DNA of 64,000 nt from an uncultured Bacteroidota bacterium (GTDB lineage Bacteria > Bacteroidota > Bacteroidia > Flavobacteriales > Flavobacteriaceae). The DNA lies in NCBI GenBank assembly GCA_902554655.1, contig CACDPE010000004.1, positions 1 through 64,000 on the forward strand. The letters are read 5' to 3'. Positions 4,440 to 62,502 of the stretch are shown piece by piece; the first letter of the stretch is position 1, and each line of letters begins with the position of its first letter. The notes beneath the pieces were generated by a model. It was not told the DNA's origin. It saw nothing but the letters and a program-made list of their open reading frames with translations, and ran no database searches. Made by a program: the position numbers and the translations under genes.

Positions 4440-5657
4440 TTAGCTCAACATTGTTTTTGCAATATTTATAGCTTCAATTAACTTATCAATTTCTTTTTTT
4501 GTATTAATAAACGATAAGGACACTCGAACAGTTCCGGAAATAAGAAAATGGTCCATAATTGGCTGAGCACAATGCTGACCAGTTCTAACGGCAATTCCAA
4601 ACTTGTCTAATATTGAACCAATATCATAGGGATGAAGATTCTCAATGTTGAAGGATATTACGGAGGTTTTATTATTAGTATCTCCATATATTTTGAGACC
4701 TTCAATTTTTTTTAATGATTGCGTAGCATAATTAAGCAATTCATTTTCATAATTATATATATTGTCTAGTCCAATTTTGTTTATATAATCTAATGCATAG
4801 CCGAAAGCTATAGCACCCGATATATTTGGAGTACCAGCTTCAAATTTATGTGGAAGTTCTGCATAAGTAGTTTTTTCAAAAGTAACATCAGAAATCATTT
4901 CTCCTCCTCCCATTAAAGGAGGCAGCTTTTCAAGTAAATTCTTTTTTCCGTAGAGAAAACCAATTCCAGTTGGCCCACACAACTTATGCGCTGATGCGGT
5001 GAAGTAATCAACATCAAGTTTTTGTAAATCAATAGTAAAATGAGCTGAGCTTTGAGCTCCGTCTATTAAAACTACAGCTCCATTTCTATGAGATATTTCA
5101 ATTATTTCTTCAATAGGATTTATTATCCCAAGTGCATTAGAAACGTGATTAAGAAAGACAATCTTGGTTTTTTCGGAGATAATTGACTTGAAATGATCAA
5201 GATCAAGCTCACCGTTTTCTTTCAGCGGAATTACACTTAATTTGGCATGATTTTTTTCAACCATCATCTGCCAGGGTACAATATTAGAATGATGTTCCAT
5301 TCCAGAAACAATTATTTCATCATCACTAGTTAATAAGTCAGTATATCCATTTGCTATTATATTAATTGAGTGTGTTGTTCCAGATGTAAAAATAATTTCT
5401 TCACTAAAATTAGCGTTAAAGTGTTTTTGAATTTTTTTTCTTGAACTTTCGTAAGCTTCAGTAGCCTCCTCACTAACTGAATGAACTCCTCGGTGGATAT
5501 TAGCATTATACTTTTTATAATAATCAGAAATTGATTCAATTACACTTATAGGAGTTTGTGATGTTGCAGCATTGTCAAAGTAGATTAAGCTTTTTCCATT
5601 TATCTTTCTCTCTAATATTGGAAAGTCTTTTCTAATATTTTCAACATTAAAAGTCAT
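4440..5657 (-). CDS. sufS: cysteine desulfurase SufS
   Basis: A group II PLP-dependent cysteine desulfurase of 405 aa, which supplies sulfur to SufE. Visible landmarks are DNAATSQTP near residue 28, GTTHSIN in the cofactor-phosphate region, DGAQSSAH, the Schiff-base lysine in TASAHKLCGPTG, and the catalytic cysteine in RTGQHCAQP near residue 360. The loop around that Cys is short, as expected for SufS as opposed to IscS. The start codon ATG at 5657 overlaps the sufD stop as TGATG, so the two are coupled. Start and length agree with the family. Confidence 0.95.
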   Translation of the reverse strand: MTFNVENIRKDFPILERKINGKSLIYFDNAATSQTPISVIESISDYYKKYNANIHRGVHSVSEEATEAYESSRKKIQKHFNANFSEEIIFTSGTTHSINIIANGYTDLLTSDDEIIVSGMEHHSNIVPWQMMVEKNHAKLSVIPLKENGELDLDHFKSIISEKTKIVFLNHVSNALGIINPIEEIIEISHRNGAVVLIDGAQSSAHFTIDLQKLDVDYFTASAHKLCGPTGIGFLYGKKNLLEKLPPLMGGGEMISDVTFEKTTYAELPHKFEAGTPNISGAIAFGYALDYINKIGLDNIYNYENELLNYATQSLKKIEGLKIYGDTNNKTSVISFNIENLHPYDIGSILDKFGIAVRTGQHCAQPIMDHFLISGTVRVSLSFINTKKEIDKLIEAINIAKTMLS

Positions 5658-7762: not shown

Positions 7763-9208
7763 TTAACCTACAGAACCTTCCAAGGATATTTCAAGTAATT
7801 TTTGAGCTTCAACTGCAAATTCCATTGGCAATTTATTCAATACTTCTTTACTAAATCCATTTACTATTAATGCTATAGCTTTTTCTGTATCAATACCTCT
7901 TTGATTACAGTAAAAAATTTGATCTTCTCCAATTTTACTTGTAGTTGCTTCATGTTCTATCTGTGCTGTTTTATTTTTTGCTTCGATGTATGGGAATGTG
8001 TGTGCTCCACAATTATTTCCCATAAGTAATGAGTCACATTGAGAAAAGTTTCTTGCATTTTCAGCATTATTGCCAATTCTGACAAGTCCTCTATAACTAT
8101 TCTGAGATTTTCCAGCTGAAATTCCTTTTGAAATAATTGTACTCTTTGTGTTTTTTCCAAGATGAATCATTTTTGTCCCAGTATCAGCTTGTTGATAATT
8201 ATTTGTTACTGCAATTGAATAAAATTCACCAACGCTATTATTACCCTTTAAAATACATGAAGGGTATTTCCATGTTACAGCAGAACCAGTTTCAACTTGT
8301 GTCCATGATATTTTAGAATTTTCATGACATAAACCTCTCTTTGTAACAAAATTGAATACGCCTCCTTTTCCTTGTTTATTACCAGGATACCAATTTTGTA
8401 CTGTTGAGTACTTGATTTCTGCATCATCAAGAGCAATTAATTCGACAACTGCTGCATGTAATTGATTTTCATCTCTTGAAGGAGCTGTACATCCTTCTAA
8501 GTAACTTACATAACTGCCCTCATCTGCAATTACAAGTGTTCTTTCAAATTGTCCTGTTCCTGCCTGGTTAATTCTAAAATAAGTAGATAATTCCATCGGA
8601 CATTTTACTCCTTTGGGGATGTAACAAAAAGAGCCATCAGAAAATACTGCAGAGTTTAAGGCAGAGTAGAAATTATCTTTTTTAGGAATAACAGTTCCAA
8701 GATATTTTTTAACAAGATCTGGATGTTCTTGAATAGCTTCTGAAATTGAACAAAAAATAATTCCTTTTTTTGAAAGAGTTTCTTTGAATGTAGTAGCTAC
8801 AGAAACAGAATCCATTACTATATCAACTGCAACCCCAGCCAGCTTCTTTTGTTCATCAATTGAGATTCCAAGTTTATCAAAGGTTTTTAAAAGTTCAGGA
8901 TCAACTTCATCAAGGCTATCATATTTTGCCTTAGTTTTAGGAGCAGAGTAATAAGAAATGTCTTGGAATTTAGGTTTTTTATAATTAACATTTGACCATT
9001 CTGGTTCTTCCATTTTTTCCCATGCTTCAAATGCGCTTAATCTCCAATCAGTCATCCACTTTGGTTCATTCTTTTTTTCTGATATTTTTCGAACAATATC
9101 TTTATTTAGGCCAACAGGAAATGTTTCAGATTCAATCTTAGTTGTAAATCCATATTGATACTCTTGTTGTTCTAATTCTTTTTTTAATTCTTCTTCGGTA
9201 TATGCCAT
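7763..9208 (-). CDS. sufB: Fe-S assembly scaffold protein SufB
   Basis: SufB is the main scaffold subunit on which nascent Fe-S clusters are built. The product is 481 aa. Recognisable blocks are [12 protein letters not shown] near residue 50, [39 protein letters not shown], and the C-terminal region with [19 protein letters not shown] followed by [18 protein letters not shown]. These cysteines include those proposed to bind or relay sulfur and iron in E. coli SufB. The ATG at 9208 is preceded by the sufA stop with a gap of 6 bases. Length and order match the family. Confidence 0.96.
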
Positions 9209-9214
9209 ATCTTT

Positions 9215-9544
9215 TTATAATGAGAAACTTTCGCCACAACCACACGTTCTGCTTGCATTTGGGTTAATGAATACAAAACCTTTTCCATTCAAACCTCCAG
9301 AGTAATCAAGTGTTGTTCCAACTAAATACAAAAAACTTTTTTTATCTATTGCAATTTTGATACCATTATCTTCAAAAATCTTATCAGATTCTGAGGAAAC
9401 TTTATCAAATTTAAGTTCGTACGAAAGACCAGAACAACCACCGCTTTTAACTCCAACTCTAATAAAATCAACAGAAGGATCATAACCATCATGTTTCATT
9501 AATTTAGCAGCTTCAATTCTCGCTTTGTCGGCAACCTTAATCAT
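9215..9544 (-). CDS. sufA: A-type Fe-S carrier protein (SufA/IscA/HesB family)
   Basis: A 109-residue A-type carrier that can deliver Fe-S clusters to target proteins. The three ligand cysteines are in SGGCSGLSYELKF near residue 36 and RTCGCGESF at the C-terminus. I chose the ATG at 9544 (MIKVADKARIEAAK). An in-frame TTG at 9553 exists, but it is the end of the TATATTTG promoter box and gives a four-codon shift not expected for this family. As first gene of the SUF operon it sets expression of the following eight. The box leaves almost no room for an untranslated leader. The sufA name is given by context; sequence alone cannot separate it from IscA or ErpA. Confidence 0.9.
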   Translation of the reverse strand: MIKVADKARIEAAKLMKHDGYDPSVDFIRVGVKSGGCSGLSYELKFDKVSSESDKIFEDNGIKIAIDKKSFLYLVGTTLDYSGGLNGKGFVFINPNASRTCGCGESFSL

Positions 9545-9550
9545 ATTTTG

Positions 9551-9558
9551 CAAATATA
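9551..9558 (-). promoter_or_regulatory. putative -7 box TATATTTG of the suf operon
   Basis: TATATTTG read on the minus strand matches the Bacteroidota -7 consensus TAnnTTTG. Only six bases separate it from the sufA ATG at 9544, so the transcript would be leaderless or nearly so. No TTG -33 element is present at the usual 17-23 base spacing, so confidence is moderate. Confidence 0.5.
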
Positions 9559-9590: not shown

Positions 9591-9634
9591 AAATTCATTA
9601 AAATTCAATTTCTGTACCAAAACATGGAATTCAT

Positions 9635-28174: not shown

Positions 28175-29622
28175 TATAATTTTTTTCTAAGCCGAGCTAC
28201 TGGTGCACCAATCATTTCTCTGTATTTTGCAACTGTTCTTCTCGCAATTGGATAACCTTTTTTATTAAGTAATTTAGTTAATTGATCATCAGTATATGGA
28301 ATATTTTTGTTCTCTTTTTCAATAATATCTTCTAGAGTTTTTTTAACTTCAATTGTAGATATTTCTACTCCATCTGAATTTTTAATTCCCTCTGAAAAGA
28401 AAGATTTTATAAGTTTAATTCCATATGGAGTGTCAACATATTTACTATTAGCTACTCTTGAGATAGTTGAAATATCCATTTCAATTTTTTCAGCTATATC
28501 CTTTAAAATCATTGGTTTCATTTTAGTTTCATCACCGGTTAAAAAATACTCTTTTTGAAAATTAACTATTGATGACATTGTCATTATTAGGGTTTGATTT
28601 CTTTGTTTAATCGCATCTATGAACCATTTAGCTGAGTCAAGCTTTTGCTTGATAAACATAACTGCATCTTTATGACTTTTAGTTTTATTTTTTGACTCAG
28701 AATATCCAGAAAGCATATTTTTGTATTCTTCTGAAACATTAAGTTGAGGTGCATTTCTTGAATTTAATTCAAGTTTTAGCTCACCATCAATAATTTTGAT
28801 AGTAAAGTCAGGGACAATCGAAGAATTAATTTTTGTATTTTCATTAAAAGCTCCACCAGGTTTAGGGTTTAATTTTTCTATTTCAGTGATCACATTTCTT
28901 AATTCTTCACTACCTATATTTAATTTTTGTTTTATTTTTTCAAAATGTTTCTTTGAGAATAAATCAAAAAAATTTTCAATTATGTTTATTGATAAATCAA
29001 TTGTTTTATTTTTACTTTTTCTTCTTAGTTGTAAAAGTAAGCATTGTTTAAGATCACGGGCACCTATACCTGGAGGATCCAATAAATATATCTTGTCGAG
29101 AATTCTCTGAATTAATGTTTCATCAGCCTCAATCCCTAGTGTAAAAATTAAATCGTCAGAAATATCTAAAATATCTCTTCTTAAATAGCCAAAAGGGTCT
29201 AAACTACCTATAATAAACTCAGCTATCTCAAGTTCTTTTTTATTTAAAGAGAAAGAATGTAATTGAGCTTTTAAAAATTGATTAAATGAAGTTCCAGATG
29301 CAAATGGAATATTTTTTTCTGATTCCTCACTGTAATTATTTGATTTAAGTCTATAATCTGGTGTGTCATCATCTGAAAGATAATCAGAAATGTCGATTTC
29401 ATCATGATCGTTCTCTTCTTTTTCAAAACTATCGTCATTCTCATTAAAATTATCAGAATCTGTATTATCACTATTTTTTGTATCTAGGGCTGGATTTTCT
29501 TCAATTTCTCTTGATAGCCTCTGCTCAAACTCTTGAGTAGACAATTGAATTAACTTCATCAATTGAATTTGTTGAGGTGAAAGTTTTTGAGATAGTTTTA
29601 ATTTTAATTTTTGATTAAGCAT
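28174..29622 (-). CDS. rpoN: RNA polymerase sigma-54 factor
   Basis: A 482-residue sigma-54. Region I at the N-terminus is glutamine- and leucine-rich (LSQKLSPQQIQLMKLIQLS) with EIEENPALD; region II is a very acidic linker (about 50-100, Asp/Asn/Glu-rich); region III contains the core-binding domain and the helix-turn-helix with MDISTISRVANSKYV near 375; the RpoN box is ARRTVAKYRE near 465. All are intact. It recognises -24/-12 promoters and needs enhancer-binding activators, none of which is in this window. Confidence 0.95.
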   Translation of the reverse strand: MLNQKLKLKLSQKLSPQQIQLMKLIQLSTQEFEQRLSREIEENPALDTKNSDNTDSDNFNENDDSFEKEENDHDEIDISDYLSDDDTPDYRLKSNNYSEESEKNIPFASGTSFNQFLKAQLHSFSLNKKELEIAEFIIGSLDPFGYLRRDILDISDDLIFTLGIEADETLIQRILDKIYLLDPPGIGARDLKQCLLLQLRRKSKNKTIDLSINIIENFFDLFSKKHFEKIKQKLNIGSEELRNVITEIEKLNPKPGGAFNENTKINSSIVPDFTIKIIDGELKLELNSRNAPQLNVSEEYKNMLSGYSESKNKTKSHKDAVMFIKQKLDSAKWFIDAIKQRNQTLIMTMSSIVNFQKEYFLTGDETKMKPMILKDIAEKIEMDISTISRVANSKYVDTPYGIKLIKSFFSEGIKNSDGVEISTIEVKKTLEDIIEKENKNIPYTDDQLTKLLNKKGYPIARRTVAKYREMIGAPVARLRKKL

Positions 29623-60361: not shown

Positions 60362-60433
60362 AGCCCTATAGTTCAACGGATAGAACAAAAGTTTCCTAAA
60401 CTTTAGATCTAGGTTCGATTCCTAGTAGGGCTA
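60362..60433 (+). tRNA. tRNA-Arg (anticodon CCT)
   Basis: Hand fold: acceptor AGCCCTA/TAGGGCT, D stem GTTC/GAAC, anticodon stem AAAGT/ACTTT with loop TTCCTAA (anticodon CCT, codon AGG), T stem CTAGG/CCTAG with loop TTCGATT, discriminator A at 60433. CCA is not encoded. It sits 4 bases after the add stop and 3 bases before the end of the convergent photolyase gene, so it is probably processed from the queG-add transcript. Confidence 0.94.
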
Positions 60434-60436
60434 CAA

Positions 60437-61900
60437 TTACCTGTCAAAAGCTGTCCTATCCGAGTTTGTATGTTTTAACAGTATTCTTTTAGATTCTAAT
60501 TTTACTTTAGGGTCATTTTTCATGGCCCAAAGTTGTGATGCAGCATGTTTATATGTTGAACTAATGTCTACAATAGGTTCAGGATAATCCTCACCAATTT
60601 TACAATTAAATGTTTCTTGATCGATTTCACTTAATTTCCAAGGTTCAAAAACCAATGGTGTAGGAATTTCTTTTAGTTTAGGTATCCATTTTTTTATAAA
60701 AACACCTTCACTATCATGTTCTTTTGCATTTTTTGTTGGGTTATATATTCTAATCATATTTATTCCAGTTTCACCTGCCTGCATTTGAAACTGGGAATAA
60801 TGAATACCTGGTTCGAAGTCAAGAAAATTATTTGCCAGAAAAACAACACCTTCTTGCCAGGGTTGCCAGAGATGATGGGTTAAAAACGAAACTAACATAG
60901 CTCTCATTCTAAAATTTAAATATCCAGTTTCTACTAAACAATTCATACATGCATCAACTAGTGGATAACCAGTTTCTCCCATCTCCCAGGCTTTTATATA
61001 TTTTTTATTTACTTTTTTTTCTAGTTTTTGATAACCTTTATTTACACTCCTAAATTGCATTTTACTTTCCATTTCAAATTTCTGAATAAAGTGGGCCTGC
61101 CATCTTAACCTGGAGGTAAACCCATTTACCTGAAATTTTGATTTTCCATGACTTGATTGTTCTTTAGCTCTTTGCCATACATATCTTGTTGAGATATTGC
61201 CCCACGAAATATATGGGGATAATCTTGAACAATTAGTTCTAGATAATTCCGGCTTACTTATATTGTTTTGATATTTATTTATTCTGGAATCTAGAAAGCT
61301 ATCTAAATATTTTAAGGCATTTGTAGTACCTCCTTTTTGAAATTTAGACTCTGAGTTTATTTTAATTTTTTTTTCTTTAAAAGTATTTTTATTTAGAGTT
61401 ATAAAATCATCGAGTTTTGGATTTATTAACTCAATTTTTTTTTTCATGTAATTATTCCAATTTAAAATCCAATTTTTTCTATTCTTAAGACCTCTAAAGA
61501 CTCCGTTATTTATTTCTTCAATCCACTTAATTTTATTTTTATTACAATAGTCCTTAAATTTTAAATCTCTTTTAAAAGATTTTTCTAAGCCAGTTTCCGT
61601 GTGTGAAAAAACTTTCTCGATATCAAATTTTGTTTTTAGCTTTTTGATAATTGAAATAATATTATCTTCAAAAAAATGAACTCTAGTTCCAAGTTTTTTA
61701 AAATACAAATTTAAATCAATCAAAGATTCGTTAATAAAACGGATATGTCTTTTGCTGAAATGTTCGTCCTCGAGTAAAGGCTTATCAAAACAATAAATCA
61801 AAAGCAATTTATTTTTTTGCTTTAAAGCATTTGCAAGAGCTAGATTGTCTACAGTTCTTAAGTCTCTTTTAAACCAATAAATATTTATTGATTCTTTCAA
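60437..61900 (-). CDS. photolyase/cryptochrome family protein with unusual active site
   Basis: A 487-residue flavoprotein. The N-terminal antenna-binding alpha/beta domain (about 1-130) starts with INIYWFKRDLRTVDNLAL. The FAD domain (about 200-487) has RLSPYISWGNISTR, TSRLRWQAHFIQKFE, YIKAWEMGETGYPLVDACM, LNFRMRAMLVSFL, WQPWQEGVVF and MIRIYNPTKNAKEHD. The first two tryptophans of the E. coli electron chain (in KAWEMG and QPWQEG) are kept. The segment that reads NNGGWQW in E. coli is here HYSQFQMQ, so the FAD-proximal Trp and the Asn near flavin N5 are both replaced. It may be a light sensor or act on a different lesion. The start is TTG at 61900; it lies 5 bases after the Rieske gene. Confidence 0.88.
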   Translation of the reverse strand: MKESINIYWFKRDLRTVDNLALANALKQKNKLLLIYCFDKPLLEDEHFSKRHIRFINESLIDLNLYFKKLGTRVHFFEDNIISIIKKLKTKFDIEKVFSHTETGLEKSFKRDLKFKDYCNKNKIKWIEEINNGVFRGLKNRKNWILNWNNYMKKKIELINPKLDDFITLNKNTFKEKKIKINSESKFQKGGTTNALKYLDSFLDSRINKYQNNISKPELSRTNCSRLSPYISWGNISTRYVWQRAKEQSSHGKSKFQVNGFTSRLRWQAHFIQKFEMESKMQFRSVNKGYQKLEKKVNKKYIKAWEMGETGYPLVDACMNCLVETGYLNFRMRAMLVSFLTHHLWQPWQEGVVFLANNFLDFEPGIHYSQFQMQAGETGINMIRIYNPTKNAKEHDSEGVFIKKWIPKLKEIPTPLVFEPWKLSEIDQETFNCKIGEDYPEPIVDISSTYKHAASQLWAMKNDPKVKLESKRILLKHTNSDRTAFDR

Positions 61901-61905
61901 TATTT

Positions 61906-62436
61906 TTAAACATTAATAACGAGACTATTGTCATTAACAGTAGCTGTATAACATTTTAGTGAACCATTTTTAGATCCATTTTGGGCAATGTTACTGGTGT
62001 TGCAGTCCGCATCAAATACACCACCATGTGCGCTACAAGAAAATTTATTATTGGAGTAAGACCATGAATTTTTGCTTCCAGCGTGAGGACATGTATTGGA
62101 AAATGCTCTGTAGCTTGTGGAATTAATTTTTAAAATTAACATGTTTTGAGCAGTGAAATTTATCCAATTGTTTGAATGGAGTGTACTAAACATGGCGTGA
62201 TTCAAGTCAACTGTTACAGTAGTGCCACTCACAGTGTATCCTTGACCAGAGTTATTGTTACCATTTCCGTTACTATTATTGTTATTATTCGATCCGTTTC
62301 CATAACCATAGTCTGAGTCATCGTCACCAGATGAACATGAATCTAAAACTGTTATACCCAAAAATGCCATGGCCACGGTGGGGCATACATTCATTAAAAA
62401 ATCGCGTCTATTATTGTTTTTGGCATTTTTTTTCAT
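61906..62436 (-). CDS. Rieske [2Fe-2S] lipoprotein with Tat-type signal
   Basis: A 176-residue protein. The N-terminus MKKNAKNNNRRDFLMNV has a twin-arginine motif, then a hydrophobic stretch and a lipobox Cys (ITVLDSC), so it is probably exported folded and lipid-anchored. A low-complexity linker of Asp, Gly and Asn follows (about 40-65). The Rieske domain holds NTCPHAGS and FSCSAHGG, with 15 residues between His and Cys, the full 2Cys-2His ligand set. No oxygenase domain or cytochrome b partner is adjacent. I chose the ATG at 62436; an upstream in-frame codon at 62502 lies beyond the promoter. Confidence 0.88.
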   Translation of the reverse strand: MKKNAKNNNRRDFLMNVCPTVAMAFLGITVLDSCSSGDDDSDYGYGNGSNNNNNSNGNGNNNSGQGYTVSGTTVTVDLNHAMFSTLHSNNWINFTAQNMLILKINSTSYRAFSNTCPHAGSKNSWSYSNNKFSCSAHGGVFDADCNTSNIAQNGSKNGSLKCYTATVNDNSLVINV

Positions 62437-62471
62437 ATTAAATTTTACATACACATTTTCAAATCTTGTGC

Positions 62472-62502
62472 CAAATTTAATTTGATTAATATGCCATTTC
62501 AA
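62472..62502 (-). promoter_or_regulatory. Rieske-photolyase promoter: TTG - 20 bases - TAAATTTG
   Basis: On the minus strand a TTG (62502-62500) is followed after 20 bases by TAAATTTG (62479-62472), a full match to the Bacteroidota consensus. The ATG at 62436 is 35 bases further on. It should drive the Rieske and photolyase genes. Confidence 0.65.

Follow-up and report, generated by a model that had tools for sequence, protein, structure and literature searches.

A photolyase-like protein family with an altered active site, encoded beside a Rieske lipoprotein in one flavobacterial genus and fused to uracil-DNA glycosylase in Deinococcus

The window analysed in this study is a stretch of 64,000 nucleotides from the partial genome (47 contigs with a total of 1.10 Mb, completeness 68%) of an uncultured member of the Flavobacteriaceae. 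Near its far end a gene for a Rieske lipoprotein is followed, 5 bases on and on the same strand, by a gene for a photolyase-like protein, with a tRNA-Arg gene 2 bases beyond its end. The initial annotation had described the two protein-coding genes and the gap between them, and their open reading frames, spacing and strand were all borne out. The features of the site are as follows.

60362..60434, plus strand: tRNA-Arg(CCT), a flanking marker of the site that lies outside the unit
60437..61900, minus strand: photolyase-like gene, 487 residues, TTG start, PF00875 and PF03441
60779..60814, minus strand: motif EPGIHYSQFQMQ, residues 363-374, with H367 (N378 in the literature), F371 (W382) and M373 (W384) by alignment
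60857..60859, minus strand: W348, the W359 equivalent and the sole Trp of the classical triad that is retained
60986..60988, minus strand: W305 of KAWEMG, by alignment the W316 equivalent and not that of W306
61016..61018, minus strand: K295, which aligns with W306, the outer Trp of the triad
61906..62436, minus strand: Rieske lipoprotein, first gene of the pair, 176 residues, PF00355
62460..62474, minus strand: upstream element TTGGCACAAGATTTG, which resembles a -24/-12 site (pattern drawn from these sequences afterwards)

The photolyase-like protein belongs to the cryptochrome/photolyase superfamily by its domains, as PF00875 and PF03441 both score above their cut-offs. An AlphaFold2 model, made with an input alignment of 53 sequences (the window protein and 52 from the best 80 of at least 552 related loci), reached a mean pLDDT of 92.2 and a pTM of 0.90, and VIA-align gave it a Z of 39.8 to 2e0i and of 36.0 to the E. 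coli structure 1dnp. The 50 structure entries listed for the model range from Z 34.8 to 39.8 and comprise class I, class III, DASH, 6-4, and plant and animal CRY entries. Class II and FeS-BCP are not represented among these 50, an absence that excludes nothing. The predicted structure shows a full photolyase fold. A sequence search for the solved structure of a close relative found none, the best match being Sulfolobus 2e0i at 130 bits. By eye, the start of the protein lacks an export signal of the kind seen in the Rieske protein (twin-Arg/lipobox). Its close relatives are found in marine Flavobacteria, e.g. MED-G14 at 88% identity. In addition, contig C9 of the same genome encodes a class I-type photolyase that directly adjoins a DPRP-type protein (PF04244).

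The residues of the active site were compared with those of E. coli Phr, taken from the K-12 genome and numbered as in the literature, with the start Met uncounted. N378, W382 and W384 correspond to H367, F371 and M373, the very replacements by His, Phe and Met that the initial annotation had read by eye, and E274, N341 and M345 correspond to R264, F330 and A334. We take E274, N341, M345 and W384 to be contacts of the CPD and N378 to be located at flavin N5. The two active-site His residues of the Drosophila 6-4 photolyase, H365 and H369, align with F330 and A334 of the window protein. It had further been claimed that the middle and the outer Trp of the electron-transfer chain are retained. 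The former is correct, as W359 equals W348 and is Trp in 116/116 rows of the family. The latter is not: W305 in the KAWEMG segment aligns with W316, a position that is Trp in 16/16 class I-type rows, and the position of W306 is taken by K295. With W306 replaced by K295 and W382 by F371, the triad is broken at both ends and two of its three positions are lost. The initial annotation had named a proper alignment as its own possible refutation; the alignment restored neither Trp382 nor Asn378, and supports the reading of a divergent cryptochrome/photolyase with substitutions expected to alter flavin photoreduction and lesion contact.

The same pattern was found throughout the family. We have aligned 116 distinct sequences (118 rows before the removal of duplicates) from three phyla, Bacteroidota, Proteobacteria and Deinococcota, which are not independent since many of them stem from related Flavobacteriia. 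His378, Met384, Arg274, Phe341 and Gln381 are present in 116/116 of these and in 0/34 comparators, one of which reads X at 341. Position 382 is Leu in 58 rows, Phe in 29, Ile in 17, Val in 7, Met in 4 and Cys in 1, and is never Trp, and position 345 is Ala in 109 and Ser in 7. Trp306 is lost in 115 of the 116 rows, in a gappy part of the alignment where Lys occupies the position in 82 and Trp in 1. Y222, R236, R344 and D372, which presumably line the FAD pocket, are invariant (116/116), which makes FAD binding likely. The comparators are all from Bacteroidota and consist of 16 class I-type proteins, the 10 best hits of the plant-cryptochrome model, all under the cut-off of that model, and 8 DASH proteins above theirs; N378 and W382 are retained in 34/34 of them and also in E. 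coli Phr. One of the alignments with class I-type neighbours used 25 rows out of 57. A family member occurs in 19 of 147 Bacteroidota genomes (completeness at least 90%, contamination at most 5%), with one match each (E up to 1e-80), and the wider family has members in Vibrio, Salinivibrio, Tritonibacter, Pseudoalteromonas, Novosphingobium and on Deinococcus plasmids.

Phylogenetic placement, which the initial annotation had proposed as a check, gave the family a clade of its own (support 100/100) in a tree of 62 proteins, with a stem of 1.54 as compared to 1.57 for DASH, and an earlier tree of 79 rows likewise showed one group (100/100). In the 62-protein tree the class I-type, DASH, DPRP-type and class II rows each formed their own clade, the hits of the plant-cryptochrome model did not form one, E. 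coli Phr stood alone, and the order of the groups was unresolved. This tree is a subsample that uses 23 of 44 family rows and 8 of 16 class I-type rows; the long branches of the DPRP and class II groups meet in it, several rows have an unusual composition, and the comparators are taken from Bacteroidota and E. coli, with eukaryotic proteins left out.

With the class I CPD photolyases (E. coli Phr and the enzyme on contig C9) the family has in common the two-domain fold, the four invariant residues of the FAD pocket, W277, R342 and W359. In contrast to class I, it has retained W359 alone of the triad W306-W359-W382, with Leu, Phe, Ile, Val, Met or Cys instead of W382, and it shows E274R, N341F, M345A/S, W384M and N378H at the CPD contacts and at N5. 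It forms a separate clade and scores below the NCBIfam cut-offs (TIGR03556, 170.7 of 884.6 bits; PRK10674, 152.9 of 506 bits), which are a weak test of class I because the Bacteroidota class I-type neighbour also remains below both (373.6 and 326.2 bits). Cry-DASH proteins resemble the family in their fold and in the aromatic residue that is usual at position 379, whereas N378 and W382 are present in 8/8 DASH rows; the window protein reaches 156.2 of 317 bits with TIGR02765 and lies outside the DASH clade in both trees. With the plant cryptochrome/class III model TIGR02766 it reaches 146.9 of 603.9 bits and, in the 62-protein tree, lies outside the 10 best hits of that model, and with the class II model TIGR00591 it reaches 58.3 of 550 bits and lies outside the class II clade. 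The two His residues of eukaryotic 6-4 photolyases and animal CRY are replaced by F330 and A334. The prokaryotic 6-4 photolyases, or FeS-BCP (PhrB, CryB), are the usual operon neighbours of the family and lack the classical triad as well; the family differs from them in having no PF04244 match and in its separate, distant position in the tree. In addition, a 13-row cross-phylum alignment contains no invariant Cys, and the family thus has no conserved site for a four-Cys cluster.

The bifunctional CPD/(6-4) proteins related to PhrSph98 are, like the family, bacterial and have an altered electron chain, for which reason identity with them was considered. The family differs in scoring only 58 bits against the class II model and in having R and F at the positions of E274 and N341, which we take to be equivalent to E310 and N384 of PhrSph98. 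Both of these residues are reported as kept in the PhrSph98-like proteins, the reported sister of class II (PMC9649867, available text), and on the basis of these residues and the class II score the identity was ruled out. Published groupings distinguish eight CPF groups, including one named 'DASH-like' (Chen/Xu; PMC9178010), or ten clades (PMC9649867), and the accessible portions of these two papers describe no group with the family motif. The 'DASH-like' group, which is named there without a description, may be this class. A literature search by words rather than motifs, with many journals outside its coverage, turned up neither this motif class nor a pairing of Rieske and photolyase genes nor a photolyase fused to a uracil-DNA glycosylase (UDG), and this silence is a weak sign of novelty.

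A scan of genome contigs yielded at least 552 confirmed relatives, of which the best 80 were kept, 5 from the genus of the window and 75 from outside it. Of the latter, three (L040, L060 and L064) were set aside for short upstream sequence. In 53 of the other 72, the gene immediately upstream, on the same strand, codes for a DPRP-type (prokaryotic 6-4) photolyase; PF04244 was found in the single upstream neighbour of this type that was scanned. The remaining 19 of the 72, Flavobacterium included, have no such gene directly upstream. Within 6 kb, the best 80 of the at least 552 loci contain another photolyase (67), an SDR (62), TIGR03643/DUF2805 (55), an ABC1 kinase (47), a flavin reductase (43), FolE (GTP cyclohydrolase I; 40) and TspO (38), where each identity rests on one example and the other photolyase was of class I type in the one scanned. 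In the genus of the window, the gene has left the photolyase cluster. According to the available part of a study on Pseudomonas, phrB, folE and cryB are light-induced under LitR-type control and an SDR gene is part of the phrB cluster (PMC9758184); by analogy, we infer that the operon of the photolyase-like gene may be under light control. Small uncharacterised proteins are also encoded beside the family photolyase, TIGR03643/DUF2805 in Flavobacteria and Vibrio and DUF2256 in Tritonibacter and Salinivibrio, and their function may be linked to this photolyase class. The genes concerned are the following.

L115:8340-8591, L091:9898-10170, L116:4142-4279 and L117:11442-11690: TIGR03643/DUF2805 and DUF2256 genes

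In seven plasmid records, all from Deinococcus, the photolyase-like domain is fused to a uracil-DNA glycosylase, with one place covering at least 80% of the D. radiophilus protein as the criterion.

L135:5998-8280: fusion gene
L137:3998-6271: fusion gene
L138:3962-6286: fusion gene
L139:3974-6256: fusion gene
L178:4995-7265: fusion gene
L230:583-2862: fusion gene
L231:589-2910: fusion gene

Each of the seven is a single frame of 756-774 residues without an internal stop, and each contains EPGIHW(S/A)Q(M/V)QMQ followed by GQDPYHG and HPSP, the latter two presumably being the catalytic motifs of uracil-DNA glycosylase. PF03167 was present in 4/4 fusions scanned, and in the one scanned with NCBIfam the UDG part was above the cut-off. 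The annotation of the fusions mentions uracil-DNA glycosylase only. In D. gobiensis (L178:5001-7265) the annotated start at 5631 lies some 630 bases inside the full-length match, while the stretch that was read begins upstream; the photolyase part is thus truncated in the annotation. A term search of the available text of the D. gobiensis genome paper gave four mentions of photolyase and none of 'uracil' or 'glycosylase'. The fusion was seen in Deinococcus only. Such a fusion of domains usually means that they work in one pathway. The cytosine of a CPD deaminates to uracil derivatives (PMC7694213, in the part available), so that reversal followed by excision of uracil would be a sensible coupling.

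The Rieske protein carries a twin-Arg motif, a lipobox with Cys34 and the ligands C116xH118 and C134xxH137, the signal being judged by eye. PF00355 scores 34.2 against a cut-off of 20.3 bits, and the four ligands are found in 13/13 Rieske proteins of the genus, as are, by eye, the twin-Arg motif and the lipobox Cys, so that the protein is probably exported. The genus sample contained 23 genomes, 55-87% complete, in which family members were told from other photolyases by their scores; 13 have the Rieske gene and 12 the photolyase-like gene. The two genes adjoin each other in 11/11 members with readable flanks, at gaps of 5-13 bases, and in the twelfth (L015, genome G012) the contig edge falls inside the photolyase-like gene. 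In two genomes, G013 (L130, 83% complete) and G018 (L122, 69%), the Rieske gene occupies this site, next to the same deaminase-like gene, and the photolyase-like gene is missing, which is a clean loss or an empty site. Outside the genus, the pair was not found in any of the 75 family loci (from the best 80 of at least 552), by similarity or by the Rieske motif, in flanks of at most 8 kb on each side that are shorter near contig ends, and a looser motif matched 5 genus loci only among the best 80. Two genomes of the same order (L016 and L017) have no Rieske motif within about 1.5 kb. Conversely, Rieske relatives were present in 15 genomes of a family sample of 149, one being that of the window itself, and 0/14 of the others have a photolyase-family gene in their flanks, which were read for up to about 1.5 kb. 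By eye, some of the 14 are near what we take to be TonB-receptor-like, YceI-like, thioredoxin-like or ApbE-like genes. The survey of the pair, whose absence outside the strain the initial annotation had named as a second possible refutation, found it kept beyond the strain, but seen inside the genus only.

The shared promoter that had been claimed is plausible, but it seems to be that of the Rieske gene. A relaxed element, TGG(C/T)A(C/T)N5TTG, precedes the Rieske gene in 13/13 genus loci, both photolyase-less ones included, which suggests that the photolyase-like gene uses the Rieske promoter in the genus; the strict form is found in 10/13. When one mismatch was allowed, the first pattern had 12 sites where 8.15 are expected; as 12 of 100 shuffles reach this number, there is no excess. 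Perfect matches to TTGGYAYNNRWWTTG, a tighter pattern drawn from the sites themselves, number 2 in the window against 0.23 expected, as 3 of 100 shuffles do, and are located as follows.

9606-9620, minus strand: TTGGYAYNNRWWTTG match before the SufA-like/SufB-like pair
62460-62474, minus strand: TTGGYAYNNRWWTTG match before the Rieske gene

We take 9215-9553 and 7763-9208 to be a SufA-like/SufB-like gene pair for Fe-S assembly. In the whole genome this tighter pattern has 8 sites against 2 for a reversed control, and of the other six sites several fall within open frames. The relaxed element is also found before sufA in 10/21 genus members. The TTGGYAYNNRWWTTG element looks like a sigma-54 -24/-12 site that lacks the final C, and Fe-S genes may be under common control through it. 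A sigma-54 (RpoN) DNA-binding domain is encoded in the window at about 28183-28656 (minus strand) and in 19/23 genus genomes.

The reading that we favour, with a confidence only just past even, is that the protein is a FAD-dependent, DNA-acting flavoprotein of a separate cryptochrome/photolyase class, most likely a light-driven repair enzyme or repair partner with a chemistry or substrate unlike that of the CPD and 6-4 photolyases. Such a protein would bind FAD. In E. coli, W382 mutants fail in the usual photoreduction, and with Trp382 lost the usual photoreduction should fail here too. The flavin would be reduced by another route, for instance by tunnelling from the retained Trp359 equivalent or by a reductant of the cell, for which the flavin reductase that is often encoded nearby would be a candidate, and the His at flavin N5 could readily give or take up a proton. 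The target may be UV-damaged DNA, possibly dimers with deaminated cytosine, from which the freed uracil would then have to be excised. The Rieske lipoprotein would be an unrelated exported electron carrier whose promoter is shared by the photolyase-like gene in the genus. The authors of a PhrB study (PMC4619345, in part) conclude that Trp342 passes electrons to FAD by tunnelling across 7.9 Å, with no residue as a bridge, and SePhrB shows photoreduction despite a putatively broken chain (PMC9178010, in part). A more specific version of the favoured reading, held tentatively and with little confidence, would be an uncharacterised photolyase class for a lesion outside CPD and 6-4, e.g. deaminated, uracil-containing dimers, with a His-faced N5 and reduction without the Trp triad, where the Deinococcus fusion would join reversal and uracil removal on one polypeptide.

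The loss of the lesion-contact residues of known photolyases would fit a protein without repair activity equally well. We rank DNA repair or repair coupling first, by a slight inclination, and place a light sensor second, as unlikely. Such a bacterial cryptochrome would sense blue light, having kept the fold and FAD and lost repair, with the N5 His setting the photochemistry, and would signal through partners. The replacement of the CPD and 6-4 catalytic residues and the recurrence with light-regulon-like genes agree with it, as does the presence, in 18/23 genus genomes, of another photolyase with the length of class I (396-444 residues), by which repair would already be covered. Nevertheless, the UDG fusion and the tight linkage to photolyase genes indicate work on DNA, and the window protein, at 487 residues, has no long output extension. 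The change could also be one of sequence only, in an ordinary CPD or 6-4 photolyase where other residues stand in for the lost ones. Known classes do vary in their Trp chain: the accessible text of PMC4619345 describes it as absent in FeS-BCP and replaced by another triad in class II, and SePhrB repairs 6-4 lesions with a putative chain interrupted by Phe and His (PMC9178010, in part). We nonetheless consider an ordinary photolyase quite improbable, given that E274, N341 and W384 are exchanged for invariant other residues and M345 for Ala or Ser, and that the same genome already encodes class I-type and DPRP-type photolyases. The initial annotation had suggested that the photolyase-like and Rieske proteins form a redox or light-response unit while judging direct contact unlikely. 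The Tat/lipoprotein signal, by eye, agrees with the latter, as it suggests opposite compartments. The unit itself we regard as very improbable, in spite of the constant adjacency within the genus, a probably single transcript and the fact that no readable genus site has the photolyase-like gene without the Rieske gene. The finding of the pair in 0/75 loci outside the genus (best 80 of at least 552) and in 0/14 Rieske relatives, together with two genomes where the Rieske gene keeps its site without the partner, argues against such a unit, and as a general feature a functional unit of the two was rejected.

The photolyase family is a textbook case for electron transfer along a Trp chain and for the way in which the residue at N5 controls the flavin. 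In all sequences examined, from three phyla, this class carries His at N5 and never Trp382, and is a natural test of both ideas. Moreover, the Deinococcus fusion provides a direct clue to the job of the class, as well as a ready protein for assay.
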